64,000 nt of DNA. Origin: Cobetia marina. Its GTDB lineage: Bacteria > Pseudomonadota > Gammaproteobacteria > Pseudomonadales > Halomonadaceae. A model generated the notes under the pieces. It did not search any database. It was not told where the DNA came from and saw only the letters and a program-made list of their open reading frames with translations. The position numbers and the translations under genes were made by a program. This document shows positions 10,204-15,463 of the stretch, one piece after another; the stretch's first letter is position 1; each line of letters starts with the position of its first letter. The stretch lies in contig NZ_CP017114.1 of the NCBI RefSeq assembly GCF_001720485.1, positions 2,356,001 to 2,420,000 on the forward strand, in the 5' to 3' direction.

Positions 10204-10879
10204 TGTCAACTCCTTCAAGTGTGTCATGTAAGGTGATTCTGGCAGCGCATCACCCCTGAATCACGCATTCCCACCATGCTCCATTGCCATCTCGGCCGAT
10301 TGGCAGATTGACCACAACCCCCTTCGTGGCATCTCGTGATCGGAAGCGACACATCAGACTCGATGTCTTCGCCATTTTCGCCCGTCACCCAAGGCTAACC
10401 TCGCGAACTCGTGATCCCTCTCGACGAATTCCTCAATAAGAAACGATACGCCACATCACCGTTTCCTCAGCACATCTCCGCCAGCAATGAGCCTTGGGTA
10501 GCGTTATGGCATATTCGAGGTTGCGCCATTTCCTTGCTGACGAGGGACGACGATCCCCCCCGCCACTGGCAAGGCGGAAAGATGGCTCACGATGGATGAC
10601 TGCGTCCGCCGAACCACCCAGAATCATGCCATCAACCCAATTTTCGCGACATTTTTGCCAATGATATCGCCAAATATCCGACCATGCCCTCTTCGCGCTT
10701 CAGTCCTGGCGTGATCCCGCAGGGCAAAGTCTCGCGCAGACCGACATCCGGCTTCCCCCATCATGAACCTGTCATGGCGACGCAACAAACATGCACTAAA
10801 ACTAATAAAGTGCTAGCTTTACCATCCCACAAGCATGAGATATCTCATCCACCTCAGGAAACGAGGAGTCAGCAAGGGA
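10204..10879. other. 676-base intergenic stretch without a supported gene
   Basis: Short frames on both strands here have no ribosome binding site and no family resemblance. The only structure I see is a small inverted repeat, GCACT at 10793-10797 with AGTGC at 10809-10813, in an AT-rich patch that may be the promoter region of the acyltransferase gene that follows. Confidence 0.5.
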
Positions 10880-11599
10880 ATGAAAGACAGTCACGACGTC
10901 GCCGTCATCACGCAGTTCACCTCTTCTTTCACGCATCAGACCCATCGAGAGACGGTGTCATTCTTCGGTCGTCGCCATCCACTTTTCCAGCAGGTCCTCA
11001 AGCTGCGTGACCAACACCATGGTGTCGCCAAGGCATATCTCAAGAAGCACACGGACCACGATGACGTGATCGACAGCAACAGTCAGCATATCTGCCTGAT
11101 GGACACACAGCACGATACCTTGCTGGGCAGCATTCGCATCACACCTGGCGGTCTCGAGTCGCGCACCCTCTTTGACGACAGTGATGTCGTTTCCATCCCA
11201 GAAGGTGCCATCTATGAATTCAGCCGTCTGGTAATGGCCCCGGAGGCCAAACGTTTCGCCCATGGCAATCTGTTGATGGCTGCAGCGGCACGCCATGTGA
11301 AATCCAGAAATGGTGATGGGATTCTGGCGTTGTGCAAGCGCGCCAACATGAAGATCTTCAAGCGCTTCGGTCTGTTGCCGCTTCACGATGCCACGCTAAG
11401 GACAGACAAGCATCTGGGAGAGCTCTACATGGTCTACGCCAGCATGGAGACCATCATGCACACGGCCAGACAGCGCTATGCCTCAGCCCCGACAGCGCCC
11501 CTGACACCTGAATGTCCGACACCCTCTGCCTCACCCGGGTCTGATGGCGGCAGCGACCGTCTTCCCCAATCGTCCCCGGCGAGTGCCAGTCGTCAATGA
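10880..11599 (+). CDS. FeeM/LuxI-like N-acyltransferase (GNAT fold), orphan
   Basis: This protein of about 239 residues resembles N-acyl amino acid synthases of the FeeM type and the related acyl-homoserine lactone synthases. The visible marks are IYEFSRLVMAPEAKR (the E-x-S-R motif of LuxI-like enzymes), LLGSIRITPGG as the central GNAT strand, and KRANMKIFKRFGLLPL near the end of the domain. The last 45 residues are Pro/Ser/Ala-rich and probably disordered. The ATG at 10880 follows GAGGAG by about a dozen bases; an earlier ATG at 10835 has no binding site. No acyl carrier protein, LuxR gene or exporter is nearby. It could make an acylated amino acid or a signal; this is inferred from the fold only. 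Confidence 0.7.
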   Translation: MKDSHDVAVITQFTSSFTHQTHRETVSFFGRRHPLFQQVLKLRDQHHGVAKAYLKKHTDHDDVIDSNSQHICLMDTQHDTLLGSIRITPGGLESRTLFDDSDVVSIPEGAIYEFSRLVMAPEAKRFAHGNLLMAAAARHVKSRNGDGILALCKRANMKIFKRFGLLPLHDATLRTDKHLGELYMVYASMETIMHTARQRYASAPTAPLTPECPTPSASPGSDGGSDRLPQSSPASASRQ

Positions 11600-11733: not shown

Positions 11734-11752
11734 GATAATGATTATCATAATC
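11734..11752 (+). promoter_or_regulatory. Fur box
   Basis: GATAATGATTATCATAATC matches the 19-bp Fur consensus at 17 positions. It lies 44 bases before the TPR gene that opens the Ni-SOD cluster. Fur with iron would repress the cluster, so it should be expressed when iron is scarce. Confidence 0.85.
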
Positions 11753-11796
11753 ATGAAGATTGGCATGCTGACGACACCCGGTCACAGGAGGTCCTC

Positions 11797-12216
11797 ATGG
11801 ACCAATGGAAGCGTGAAACCCACTCAGGCAATGCGTTGTTCGAACAGGGCGACTACGTCATGGCAGAGCAGCACTATCTCAGTGCCTGCCACCTGGCAGA
11901 CATCTTTCTGATGCCCGGTGCAGACCCGGAAGGCGGCGTCGCGGCGCTGGTGGTGAGCTATCAGAACCTGGCGGAGCTCTATCGCGCCCAAGGGCAGCAC
12001 CCGCAGGCGATGAGCGCCCTGCAGGCTGCCCATGCCCGCCTCTCCCATGCGCTTTCCGCCCCGGGCCTGTGCCATGCCCACCAGCAAGCCTTGCTGCGCG
12101 GCAGTGGCCAGGTGCGAATGGACATCATGAATACCGTGCAATGGCTGGGCGTCTCTCGTCAGCGGACTTATCGGCCAACCCCCGCGCGTCATGCGGCGAC
12201 GCGGGTCCATCACTGA
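11797..12216 (+). CDS. Small TPR-like protein, first gene of the Fur-controlled Ni-SOD cluster
   Basis: This 139-residue protein has a helical-repeat character. GNALFEQGDYVMAEQHYLSA and SYQNLAELYRAQGQHPQAM have the spacing of tetratricopeptide repeats. It has no signal peptide, so it is probably cytosolic and binds another protein. The start at 11797 has CAGGAGG six bases upstream; the longer frame from 11728 runs through the Fur box and is rejected. Histidines and two cysteines (SACH, GLCHAHQQ) could bind metal. It is followed after 25 bases by the His-rich peptide gene and then sodN. Its function is unknown; a role as a chaperone for nickel loading or for the pro-enzyme is a guess from context. 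Confidence 0.75.
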   Translation: MDQWKRETHSGNALFEQGDYVMAEQHYLSACHLADIFLMPGADPEGGVAALVVSYQNLAELYRAQGQHPQAMSALQAAHARLSHALSAPGLCHAHQQALLRGSGQVRMDIMNTVQWLGVSRQRTYRPTPARHAATRVHH

Positions 12217-12241
12217 TCCTCACCCCCACAGGAGATATGGC

Positions 12242-12451
12242 ATGAAGAAACCCCTCATCGCGAGTGGACTGCTGTTGTTGACCGCCGCCAATACGGCACT
12301 GGCCCACCCGGGACATGACCACAGTGACTGGAGCAGCCCCCTCGTTCACACCCTGTTCTATGGCGCCATCGCAGCCGTCATCGGAACCGCATTCTTTGTC
12401 ATTCGTCAGTCGCGTCACAAACGTCACAACACTCAGCAAAAGGAGGATTGA
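12242..12451 (+). CDS. His-rich single-helix membrane peptide (HupE/UreJ-like N-terminus)
   Basis: This 69-residue protein has a signal peptide (MKKPLIASGLLLLTAANTALA) that would be cut to leave HPGHDHSDW at the new N-terminus. One membrane helix (LFYGAIAAVIGTAFFVI) and a basic His-containing tail (RQSRHKRHN) follow. The mature start resembles that of HupE/UreJ nickel permeases, which also begin after the signal with HPGH-type metal ligands, but the other helices are missing. It probably binds Ni(II) or another metal at the outer face of the membrane. AGGAG precedes the start. It sits directly before sodN, with two bases between stop and start, so a role in metal supply for the dismutase is inferred. 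Confidence 0.7.
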   Translation: MKKPLIASGLLLLTAANTALAHPGHDHSDWSSPLVHTLFYGAIAAVIGTAFFVIRQSRHKRHNTQQKED

Positions 12452-12453
12452 AC

Positions 12454-12954
12454 ATGCTTCATGCCCTGCTCCGCACCGTTGACCGACTGGTCTCACTCCC
12501 TGCGGCCTCCGCGCACTGTGATATTCCCTGCAAGATCTATGACCCGTCCGCTGCGCAGATCGCCGCACTCAGCGTGATCCGCTTCATGGACCTGATCAAT
12601 GAGCTGGGCCAGAAGGACAGCCTGACGCTGGCAGACCAGGCCTTGCTCGCCCGTCTGGTGGAGCAGAAGGAAAGCCACGTCGAGAAAGCCAAGCATGAGA
12701 TCCGCATCATCTGGGGCGACTACATCAAGCAGCCGCAGCGTGACGCCTATCCGGACATCGATGCACTGGTCCACAGCATCATGCTGGCCGGCTCTGCCTG
12801 CAAACAGGGCATCGAGCGGGACAAGGGGGAAAAGCTGCTGACCCTCATCAATGAATTCGCCGCGGCGTTCTGGGATACCAAGGGACTCACCACCTTTACC
12901 GCCATCTGCCCGTATCCGCCGTCTGAAACTGTCGTCTATCCGAAGCTGGATTGA
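12454..12954 (+). CDS. sodN: Nickel superoxide dismutase precursor
   Basis: Ni-SOD converts superoxide to oxygen and hydrogen peroxide. The precursor has 166 residues. A 20-residue leader (ending LPAASA) must be removed to expose the nickel hook HCDIPCKIYDP, where the N-terminal amine and His1 with Cys2 and Cys6 hold the metal. The rest is the four-helix bundle of the family (SVIRFMDLINEL, WGDYIKQP) and ends in the usual CPYPPSETVVYPKL. The ATG at 12454 has AGGAGG seven bases upstream; a TTG two codons earlier is less likely. It is the third gene behind the Fur box at 11734. This fits replacement of an iron enzyme by a nickel enzyme when iron is low. Confidence 0.95.
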   Translation: MLHALLRTVDRLVSLPAASAHCDIPCKIYDPSAAQIAALSVIRFMDLINELGQKDSLTLADQALLARLVEQKESHVEKAKHEIRIIWGDYIKQPQRDAYPDIDALVHSIMLAGSACKQGIERDKGEKLLTLINEFAAAFWDTKGLTTFTAICPYPPSETVVYPKLD

Positions 12955-12982
12955 GGCAACGACATGACGCGCCAAAGAACTG

Positions 12983-13309
12983 ATGAAGAGTGAATTGATC
13001 AAGCGTGAACGGATGCCCATCGGGCTCTATCGCATCAATGGACTCAGCATGTCTCCCGGCCTTGCGCCGGGAGATTATGTCGTCACGCTGAAACGCTGGA
13101 GATCGCGCTATCGCGTCGGGGATATCGTGGTGGCACAGCACCCCCACTTCGGCCGCATCATCAAGCGCATCCGTGAGATACAACCAGACGGCATGCTATG
13201 GCTGGAAGGTACCCATCCGGACAGTGCCTCGACTGAAAAGATGGGCTTGCTGTCTTGTCGGCGAGTCAAAGGGCGAGTGATCCACACCTTCTCTCAAGAC
13301 AATACGTGA
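12983..13309 (+). CDS. sodX: Ni-SOD maturation protease (S26 signal-peptidase-like)
   Basis: This 108-residue protein has the serine/lysine dyad of S26 peptidases. The serine lies in GLSMSPGLAPGDYV and the lysine in GRIIKRIREI. It lacks a membrane anchor and is much shorter than ordinary signal peptidases, which is typical of the Ni-SOD maturation protease that trims the leader to expose His1. It begins 28 bases after sodN and is the last gene of the cluster. The ribosome binding site is poor, and an ATG at 13013 (MPIGLYRINGLSM) is an alternative start. A short open frame of nine codons (12964) precedes it and may help coupling. Confidence 0.9.
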   Translation: MKSELIKRERMPIGLYRINGLSMSPGLAPGDYVVTLKRWRSRYRVGDIVVAQHPHFGRIIKRIREIQPDGMLWLEGTHPDSASTEKMGLLSCRRVKGRVIHTFSQDNT

Positions 13310-13366: not shown

Positions 13367-15463
13367 TCACACAACCTTCATCAGCCTCAGCGCGTCATAG
13401 ATTGCTGCGTGGGTATTGCGGGTCGCGACGGCATCGCCGATGCGGTAGAGCTGGAACTTGCCGTCTGCTGAGCGCTCGGTGTGCTCTGGACTTGGGCCGT
13501 CTGCAGGCTGGGCGAGTCCTTCGATCAAGGCGTCATAGTCCACTGCCCCGCCATTGCGCGAGTGGGGTTTGAGTTCGAAGTAGAGATCTTCCATCGGGCG
13601 GGCGCCGTAGTTGACGACTACCTGATCGACGATTCGCTGATCCGCGTAGGCACCGGTGCCCTTGCCCTGTGCTACGGCGTCATCCAGATAATCACTGCCG
13701 ATATGGGCGATCAACTGGCCCTCCTCACCGCGCGAGACACCGCCGAGGCGATAGGTCGGCGTGAAGGTGACGGCGAGACGTTGCAGACTGCGCATGTAAG
13801 GCACCAGGTTCATGGCCATGATTTCTGGCGCGAAGGTGCGATCTGGCGTCATCATCTCGAGCCTGGCTCCGGTGTTGGCGATCATCTCGGCGGCCTGGAG
13901 TGCGGCGTGGTCTCCCGCATCATCAAACAGCAGCACGTTGCGGCCAGGCGTGACATGGCCGGAGAGAATGTCCCAGCTGGAGACGACCAGCTCACTGCCG
14001 ACCTGCGGCATGTCTTCCTCGGGGTAGCCGCCCGTGGCGACGATGACCACATCCGGCTGCTCCGCCAGCACGTCATCGGCCTCGGCGAAGACGTTGTAGC
14101 GAATCTCGACGCCCAGCGCCTCGCAGCGACTGATGCGCCAATCGATGATGCCGATCATCTCGCGACGCCGCTCGCTCTGCGCGGTCAGGCGAATCTGGCC
14201 ACCGGGTTGATCCGCCGCTTCCAGCACCACCACCTGATGGCCGCGCTCACCGGCGACACGTGCCGCCTCAAGCCCTGCCGGTCCCGCCCCGATGATCACC
14301 ACCTTCCTGGCGACCTCGGCCGGTGCGATGTCATGCGGCTGCTCCAGTTCACGCCCGGTGGCGGCGTTGTGGATGCAGTAGGCCGATCCGCCCTGATAGA
14401 TGCGATCGAGACAATAGTTGGCCCCGACACAGGGGCGAATATCCTCTTCCTTGCCGGCCAACAGCTTGCGCACGATATGCGGGTCCGCCATGTGGGCACG
14501 CGTCATGCCGACCATGTCGACCTTGCCGGTGGCGATGGCATGGCGCGCGGTGGCGATGTCCTGAATCTTGGCACCATGGAAGGTCGGGAAATCCATCGCC
14601 TCACGAATCTGTCCCGCGAAGTCCAGATGCGGCGCACTGGCCATGCCCTGGATCGGGATGACATCGGTGAGCCCAGCATCAGTATCGATATGGCCACGTA
14701 CCACATTGAGAAAATCGATCTGTCCGCTATCGCGCAGCAGACGCGAGACCGCAAGGCCATCACTGGCATCCAGACCGCCACTCAGGCATTCATCCCCGGT
14801 GTAGCGCACCCCGACGATGAACTCGTTGCCCACCCGGGCACGAATCGCGCTCAACACTTCCATGGTGAAGCGCAGTCGATTCTCGAGACTGCCGCCATAG
14901 GGCCCCTCCAGGGTGTTGGTCAGTGGTGACCAGAACTGATCCATCAGATGCCCGTAGGCCTGCAGCTCGATACCATCAAGACCCGCCGCTTTCATGCGTT
15001 CTGCGGCGTCCGCATAGTCCTGGATCAGGCGCCTGATGTCCCAGTCCTCGACCCGCTTGGGAAAGGCGCGATGAGCCGCCTCGCGACGATGCGACGCCGA
15101 CACGGCAGGTAGCCAGTCGGCCTTGTCCCAACGCGTACGACGCCCCAGGTGGGTGAGCTGGATCATCACTGCGGTACCGTGCTCATGGCAGGCATCGGTC
15201 AGCTCGCTCAGCCAGGGCACCACCTCATCACGCCAGGCGAGAATATTGTTGAACACCGGCGGACTATCTCGGGCGACCGAGGCGGAGCCTGCTGTCATGG
15301 TCAAGGCGATACCGGCGCGCGCACGCTCCTCGTGATAGGCGCGATAACGTGCCTTGGGCATGCCATCTTCGGGATAGGCGGGCTCGTGGGAGGTCATCAT
15401 CAAGCGATTCTTGAGGGTGAGGTGCTTGAGCGTGAACGGTGTGAGCAGCGGATCCTGAGCCAT
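13367..15463 (-). CDS. FMN/FAD-linked N-demethylase (DgcA / stachydrine-demethylase-like, Old Yellow Enzyme family)
   Basis: This 698-residue protein has an N-terminal OYE barrel (PFTLKHLTLKNRLMMTSHEPAY, the active-site IQLTHLGRRT, and GYGGSLENRLRFT-like segments) and a C-terminal nucleotide-binding domain with KVVIIGAGPAGLEAARVAGE. It resembles dimethylglycine or N-methylproline/stachydrine demethylases more than 2,4-dienoyl-CoA reductase. The iron-sulfur loop reads CVGANYC then a distant C; three cysteines are seen, and the second of the usual four is replaced by Ala. It is divergent from a TetR gene with a perfect palindrome between them. A GbdR-like regulator lies far away at 62717. Betaine or proline-betaine catabolism is the likely pathway; the exact substrate is open. 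Confidence 0.8.
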   Translation of the reverse strand: MAQDPLLTPFTLKHLTLKNRLMMTSHEPAYPEDGMPKARYRAYHEERARAGIALTMTAGSASVARDSPPVFNNILAWRDEVVPWLSELTDACHEHGTAVMIQLTHLGRRTRWDKADWLPAVSASHRREAAHRAFPKRVEDWDIRRLIQDYADAAERMKAAGLDGIELQAYGHLMDQFWSPLTNTLEGPYGGSLENRLRFTMEVLSAIRARVGNEFIVGVRYTGDECLSGGLDASDGLAVSRLLRDSGQIDFLNVVRGHIDTDAGLTDVIPIQGMASAPHLDFAGQIREAMDFPTFHGAKIQDIATARHAIATGKVDMVGMTRAHMADPHIVRKLLAGKEEDIRPCVGANYCLDRIYQGGSAYCIHNAATGRELEQPHDIAPAEVARKVVIIGAGPAGLEAARVAGERGHQVVVLEAADQPGGQIRLTAQSERRREMIGIIDWRISRCEALGVEIRYNVFAEADDVLAEQPDVVIVATGGYPEEDMPQVGSELVVSSWDILSGHVTPGRNVLLFDDAGDHAALQAAEMIANTGARLEMMTPDRTFAPEIMAMNLVPYMRSLQRLAVTFTPTYRLGGVSRGEEGQLIAHIGSDYLDDAVAQGKGTGAYADQRIVDQVVVNYGARPMEDLYFELKPHSRNGGAVDYDALIEGLAQPADGPSPEHTERSADGKFQLYRIGDAVATRNTHAAIYDALRLMKVV

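Follow-up and report, generated by a model that had tools for sequence, protein, structure and literature searches.

A Fur-box-headed Ni-SOD operon of Cobetia marina encodes a conserved one-helix mini-protein that may help supply nickel

We analysed a 64,000-nucleotide stretch of Cobetia marina DNA (contig NZ_CP017114.1, positions 2,356,001 to 2,420,000; hereafter the window), held within a complete genome of 4.18 Mb, and focused on its gene cluster for nickel superoxide dismutase (Ni-SOD). Four open reading frames (ORFs), all on one strand and each running from ATG to TGA, encode a TPR protein, a 69-residue membrane mini-protein, the Ni-SOD precursor SodN and its maturation protease SodX (Table 1). 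AGGAG(G) stands ahead of the first three genes, and the sodN start follows the mini-protein stop after only 2 bases. SodN scored 159.6 bits against TIGR02753 (cut-off 90) and carries the Ni-hook HCxxPCxxY as HCDIPCKIYDP from residue 21, after the leader, a motif invariant in a 7-row alignment. SodX reached 56.7 bits against TIGR02754, under the cut-off of 63.25; PF10502 and PF00717 are both above cut-off, and its location after sodN fits SodX. A first-pass annotation, made from the letters alone, had described a near-perfect Fur box heading four same-strand genes, two of them being Ni-SOD and its protease, and these assignments were confirmed. The TPR gene, the mini-protein gene, sodN and sodX form a real, conserved operon. 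A scan for promoters and terminators found no sigma-70-like site; its one terminator-like site falls within the TPR gene, and both outcomes are what chance would give.

The Fur box shows one mismatch to GATAATGATTATCATTATC, for which 100 shuffles of the window gave a mean of 0.00, and agrees with GATAATGATAATCATTATC at 18 of 19 positions. Fur-like boxes of at least 15/19 within 300 bp upstream of the operon were found ahead of 35 of 67 TPR-led sodN operons, compared with 7 of 381 control regions lying upstream of other frames of at least 200 codons at the same loci, many of which are not genes; because the loci are related to one another, the test overstates their independence. Such a box precedes 1 of 20 operons led by the mini-protein gene and 0 of 23 led by sodN. 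The box at the operon head is thus conserved, and Fur probably acts on the operon in this strain as well. In Alteromonas macleodii, the Ni-SOD MASE_02360 is enriched under iron limitation (PMC7190382), and Ni-SOD has served as an iron-stress marker in seawater (PMC11069385; these and the papers cited below are represented here by excerpts). Two further SOD genes in the genome that holds the window, one of the Fe/Mn family (by eye of the iron type) and one of the Cu/Zn type, fit a role of Ni-SOD as the iron-sparing form.

In the mini-protein, a predicted signal peptide ending in ALA is followed by HPGHDH and one long helix. Since a signal peptide is predicted, HPGHDH is the predicted start of the mature protein (HPGHDHSDWSSPLVH). 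The first-pass annotation had described a 69-residue peptide with an HPGHDH start and one membrane helix; the helix and the motif stand, and the start is to be read as that of the predicted mature form, not of the ORF. A structure model contains helices 5-17 and 28-68 (predicted local distance difference test, pLDDT, 78.5; predicted template modelling score, pTM, 0.46) and is confident for the helix only. The ratio of nonsynonymous to synonymous substitution rates (dN/dS) against copies in two other genomes of the genus is 0.12-0.13, indicative of purifying selection and therefore of a real gene. Numbered from the predicted mature terminus, His1, His4 and His6 are present in 76 of the 77 distinct mini-proteins collected by profile, together with Gly3 in 73, Asp5 in 71, His15 in 74 and an Ala before His1 in 74. 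Because the profile was seeded with HPGHDH proteins, and the motif-less peptides at two loci (L061, L065) fall outside the 77, these counts describe the family as found and not all proteins in the slot ahead of sodN. His15 is invariant across a 33-row alignment, and in one member (L162) Arg replaces His1. The mini-protein is thus predicted to be exported and to expose its His cluster at the outer face.

Table 1. Features of the Ni-SOD operon, in window coordinates.
Feature	Position	Strand	Basis or remark
Fur box GATAATGATTATCATAATC	11734..11752	+	one mismatch; 18/19; 44 bp before TPR ATG
TPR protein, 139 aa, OrfX / DUF2753-related family	11797..12216	+	TPR_1, TPR_2, family membership, five-helix model
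Mini-protein, 69 aa, membrane, export predicted	12242..12451	+	profile, conservation, structure model, dN/dS
Predicted signal peptide, mini-protein residues 1-21, ends ALA	12242..12304	+	by eye; cleavage inferred
HPGHDH, predicted mature N-terminus of mini-protein	12305..12322	+	residue conservation among 77 distinct members
Conserved His15 (residue 36), near membrane-helix start of mini-protein	12347..12349	+	74/77 members
sodN, Ni-SOD precursor, 166 aa; Ni-hook HCDIPC from residue 21	12454..12954	+	TIGR02753
sodX, Ni-SOD maturation protease (S26/S24 type), 108 aa	12983..13309	+	PF10502, PF00717

We examined the distribution of the two genes upstream of sodN across 390 genomes sampled evenly from the order. 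SodN was matched in 38 of them, strongly in 34, at 36 loci. An iterated profile finds the mini-protein at 23 of these loci; the TPR gene is present at 23, both genes at 20 and neither at 10. Each of the two genes occurs in 10 of the 15 families with strong sodN. The search for the same pair beside sodN in other genomes, proposed at first pass, therefore succeeded at 20 of 36 strong loci and in many families. Four of the 10 loci with neither gene (L067, L068, L070, L072) hold a mini-protein that the profile missed, with signal, Ala-His junction and helix. A profile-free rule devised after such proteins had been seen (signal, Ala-His junction, one further helix, 40-115 residues) was positive in the slot at 23 of 36 sodN loci versus 0 of 490 control segments of the same loci. 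In a second sample of 80 named loci, which overlaps the first, it was positive in 36 of 80 slots versus 2 of 996 control segments, and the profile found 60 mini-proteins and 50 TPR genes. Drawing 369 genomes from across the class added six strong sodN loci, four with the mini-protein by profile, the Arg-bearing copy included, and two, from genomes of 1.1 and 1.3 Mb, with a slot mini-protein recognized by eye (AHLTNS, AHEGNATFHYH). At a more distant sodN locus from a phylum draw (L177), no slot mini-protein was seen by eye. The gap from mini-protein to the first Met of the sodN frame has a median of 2 bases over 87 loci. In the window's own family sodN is rare, occurring outside the genus in 1 of 31 genomes.

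Run against the same 390 genomes, the mini-protein profile gave 42 matches. The best 24 (E-value 1.6e-10 or better) are small ORFs, 23 of them directly upstream of sodN, and 16 others are parts of longer frames of 138-297 residues; the three of these that were checked are all HupE/UreJ, one being the UreJ linked to urease in the genome that holds the window. That leaves two small ORFs (G298, G328; E about 1e-4), each placed after ureG at the end of a urease operon.

HupE is a nickel facilitator. Aligned by hhalign, the mini-protein and the mature N-terminus of HupE/UreJ gave a probability of 89% over 37 columns, with some HupE rows trimmed within the signal peptide, as against 4.4% for the best of 40 column shuffles, so that the resemblance to the first part of HupE/UreJ remarked on at first pass was borne out. 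The further idea of a HupE that had kept its N-terminus and dropped its channel gained no such support: once the His motif is removed, the probability falls to 1.3%, and the likeness is therefore one of a shared motif in a shared place. Both proteins have a signal peptide, a mature HPGH with a following His, and a conserved His about 15 residues on; HupE/UreJ is a multi-helix permease, whereas the 69-residue mini-protein has one membrane helix after its signal and no PF04955 match. We accordingly rejected the name HupE.

The two also share an operon position. In a Methylococcales metagenome-assembled genome (MAG; L157), the order is TPR gene, full-length HupE (PF04955, 136.8 bits), sodN and sodX (the last by eye), and a Fur-like box of 16/19 lies at the operon head. 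Likewise, the UreJ gene of the window's genome (L173) follows ureG, the position held by the mini-protein at the two urease loci (L076, L077). The mini-protein slot and the HupE/UreJ slot thus coincide at two nickel enzymes, Ni-SOD and urease. This sharing, based on three loci, is the best evidence for a nickel role. At sodN loci without the mini-protein, the HupE profile found a full-length match at L157 only, along with three mini-proteins at about E 1e-5; among 16 polytopic ORFs near such loci, the L157 HupE is the one identified. The genome of L077 (G328) has no PF04955 match, and G298 has three weak ones in larger frames. The one-helix, N-terminal-His proteins closing the urease operons (L076:5064-5273, L077:4955-5164) match DUF6732 weakly. 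That family (PF20506), for which no function is known and no paper was found in the open-licence PubMed Central (PMC) literature, comprises similar small proteins with a signal, an N-terminal His and one helix, and four relatives bear its label; the window's copy scores 17.9 bits against a cut-off of 27, and the name DUF6732 was likewise rejected for it.

Other searches with the mini-protein returned little: nothing better than E 0.2 in the PDB by sequence, one PADLOC match at E 0.019, and no match for it or for two DUF6732 relatives in a plasmid collection, in which two records hold SodN relatives. No description of it beside sodN was found in the excerpts of open-licence PMC literature searched.

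The TPR protein exceeds the cut-offs of PF00515 and PF07719, and its model is a confident five-helix TPR fold (pLDDT 89.5). TPR-type matches led the fold search, none at E 0.001 or better; a PDB sequence search with its profile matched TPR-bearing chains, neither search yielding a nearer structural relative, and PADLOC gave nothing. PF10952 (DUF2753) does not match the window's protein and is carried as a precomputed label by close Cobetia relatives; the open-licence PMC literature listed one paper for DUF2753. The profile gave 53 matches in 51 of the 390 genomes, 23 in sodN operons, and 27 of the other 30 loci were fetched. An Fe/Mn-SOD gene is present at 11 of these 27, accompanied by fumC at 8, and 10 of the 11 TPR matches reach E 1.5e-25 or better (L198 at 3.7e-14). 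None of the 11 has the mini-protein. Their best Fur-like sites, scored without a chance control, reach 14-16/19 in 8 of 11 and lie close to the operon head, 1.65-1.85 kb ahead of the TPR gene. One of these loci (L187) has a ZIP transporter downstream (PF02535, 87.9 bits), and similar-looking ORFs occur in several others.

Gene order and family membership indicate that the TPR family is the OrfX family of the Pseudomonas operon fagA-fumC-orfX-sodA (PFL_0906-09; PA4468-PA4471). As here, that operon is Fur-linked and places a same-family TPR gene directly upstream of an iron-free SOD. It differs in encoding Mn-SOD instead of Ni-SOD, in the ZIP transporter downstream in the tested copy (L187), and in having no mini-protein; fumC, in turn, does not adjoin the window's TPR gene, where the upstream ORF is acyltransferase-like. 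In the fluorescens strain Pf-5, sodA lies downstream of a putative Fur motif and rises under iron limitation, and for the neighbouring metal transporter PFL_0910 one column gives 2.44, whereas the other marks it as not significant (PMC3377617). The operon recurs in P. aeruginosa as PA4468-PA4471, where it carries two Fur boxes (PMC3742457). In Oceanospirillum sediminis (L110) the order is fumC, TPR gene, sodN, sodX (fumC and sodX by eye), as in the OrfX operon but with sodA replaced. A tree of 90 TPR proteins places 10 of the 11 sequences from Fe/Mn-SOD loci in a single supported group; since its deeper forks and root are not resolved, it gives no direction of exchange. With an Fe/Mn-SOD gene at 11 of the 27 fetched loci, the claim that the TPR gene belongs to a nickel system is not supported, and we rejected the TPR protein as a nickel-specific factor. 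It is already known from the Pseudomonas operon and appears here in a new place, and the mini-protein is the interesting part. Judged by its 23 of 24 best matches upstream of sodN, its absence from the 11 TPR and Fe/Mn-SOD loci and its conserved His residues, the mini-protein, unlike the TPR gene, tracks nickel.

Two described systems are instructive in comparison. In cyanobacteria, SodT of the UreH family is a proposed nickel supplier encoded beside sodN and sodX, but it is a transporter of another family with six predicted membrane segments (PMC4284471). The Anglerases Ang-1 and Ang-2 resemble the mini-protein in having an N-terminal His after a signal peptide and in capturing metal next to a HupE/UreJ-type permease, yet theirs is a folded domain fused to the permease, as opposed to a short tail on a single helix; these fused domains bind metal (PMC12537917). 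No N-terminal-His folded domain is present in the 69 residues of the mini-protein.

On balance we think it probable, if not by much, that the locus is an operon for an iron-sparing SOD, with a mini-protein that captures nickel for SodN. Under iron shortage, Fur would leave the promoter and the cell would make Ni-SOD, with SodX trimming SodN to expose His1 of the Ni-hook. This His1, freed when SodX removes the leader, contributes its amine and side chain to the Ni-SOD active site. The mini-protein would be exported, cut at the Ala-His junction and held in the inner membrane by its helix, with His1, His4 and His6 at the outer (periplasmic) face and His15 at the helix entry. There it would bind Ni(II) and pass the nickel toward the cytoplasm, either by itself, as a small oligomer, or through a permease that it feeds, and so fill the place taken elsewhere by HupE/UreJ or SodT. 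The TPR protein would be a partner of the iron-starvation SOD, Fe/Mn-type or Ni-SOD alike, probably a scaffold in contact with it.

Several observations weigh against this reading. On the regulatory side, 32 of the 67 TPR-led sodN operons lack a box of 15/19, and none of 7 Alteromonas loci reaches even 13/19. Of the 36 sodN loci, 13 lack the mini-protein by profile; some such protein is present at 27, and 9 fail both tests, the profile-free rule itself missing 4 of the 23 profile loci, the window's own included. Among the loci that lack it, L061 and L065, relatives of the loci of family f27 described below, keep sodN beside a slot peptide that has lost HPGHDH, so the motif may be dispensable in that group, or the system may be decaying there; this speaks against a strict need for it. 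One of the best 24 matches is an orphan (G066, L075) in a genome without a SodN match. As to function, no ion path is obvious by eye in the helix, the HupE likeness vanishes with its motif, and the window's genome already encodes a UreJ. The slot argument, moreover, includes a single case of full HupE at sodN, from a MAG, and two urease mini-proteins with profile matches of only E 1e-4. As to the TPR protein, neither an Fe/Mn-SOD gene nor a SodN match lies within the 6.5-8.7 kb fetched at 16 of the 27 loci, and therefore the family is not tied to SOD everywhere.

Some of these points bear on other accounts of the mini-protein. One of them, narrower than our own and overlapping it, makes it an accessory subunit feeding a separate nickel permease such as the urease-linked UreJ. 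The UreJ of the window's genome has a similar N-terminus, and N-terminal-His domains are fused to HupE/UreJ-type permeases elsewhere (PMC12537917). Since the L077 genome pairs a urease-operon mini-protein with no detectable HupE-type partner, we regard this form as rather unlikely. Alternatively, the mini-protein could be a membrane assembly factor that anchors SodX or the SodN precursor during leader cutting and nickel insertion and moves no nickel across the membrane. Its close placement ahead of sodN would suit such a role, and by eye both SodN and the mini-protein have a His right after an AxA-like site. However, the predicted position of the His cluster is the outer face, whereas SodN by eye lacks a classical export signal. 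Two urease operons in genomes with no SodN match end in similar mini-proteins, and inspection by eye of the ORFs listed there revealed no SodX; we consider this explanation unlikely.

It is still less probable that the mini-protein handles another metal, or buffers envelope metals generally, and is present through the Fur promoter only. The HxxHxH motif binds several metals, one orphan copy lacks sodN, and the DUF6732-like relatives have no known function. Against this stand its absence from the 11 TPR and Fe/Mn-SOD loci, 8 of which have the Fur-like sites described above, scored as they were without a chance control, and the urease setting, again a nickel one, of the other two small relatives located. 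Finally, the TPR gene and mini-protein might be passengers of an inherited or mobile block with no role for SOD, as the sodN loci lacking one or both genes, the TPR loci without a SOD gene and the TPR genes persisting at five fetched loci of one family (f27), from genomes without a SodN match, could suggest. The purifying selection on the mini-protein, its presence in 10 of 15 families with strong sodN and the slot mini-proteins (by eye) kept in the two genomes of 1.1 and 1.3 Mb make this very improbable.

The surveyed loci and the window's neighbourhood yielded further observations. At L199, L203 and L209, sodN is missing or shortened by eye and the TPR gene persists; in the f27 loci L203 and L209, what remains by eye is, respectively, a truncated start of sodN with a sodX-like frame and a peptide lacking HPGHDH. 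The orphan HPGHDH mini-protein (L075:4993-5190; L214:15690-15881) has no TPR gene in the 10 kb scanned. In each of two genomes (G303, G355), a second copy of sodN (L073, L074) has neither TPR gene nor mini-protein, and immediately downstream of the L073 copy no sodX was apparent by eye. Divergent SodN-like proteins (frames of 158-177 residues, E 1e-9 to 1e-12) occur in G145, G275, G314, G149, G711, G755, G776 and G983, and four scanned loci of such genes (L079, L166-L168) gave no TPR or mini-protein match. Upstream of one TPR-peptide-sodN-sodX set lies a further TPR-like ORF, longer than the first and with a weak profile match (L009:2665-3300). In the window, a 254-residue FeeM/GNAT-like acyltransferase ORF (10835-11599, + strand; PF21926 at 21.7 bits, below cut-off) lies just ahead of the Fur box, with a similar ORF upstream in the same-genus loci L003-L006, and a 698-residue ORF, NADH:flavin oxidoreductase-like by eye (13367-15463, - strand), converges with sodX.

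A wider proposal is one we hold only tentatively and would call doubtful: that a carrier corresponding to a severed HupE N-terminus, with one helix and about 48 mature residues, can take the place of a nickel permease with several helices, at Ni-SOD and also, in other lineages, at urease, and is plugged into a Fur-controlled operon that exchanges SOD and metal supplier together (Mn-SOD with ZIP; Ni-SOD with the mini-protein or HupE). The TPR data suggest that OrfX is a partner accompanying the iron-sparing SOD whatever its metal, and the uncharacterised OrfX of a long-known Pseudomonas operon is now tied to Ni-SOD operons. The excerpts of open-licence PMC literature searched gave no account of the nickel route to Ni-SOD in bacteria without SodT. 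The mini-protein, for which we infer nickel binding and delivery, is a compact, testable candidate for that supply, conserved in marine Gammaproteobacteria, and at two nickel enzymes a protein with one helix can occupy the place of the nickel permease.

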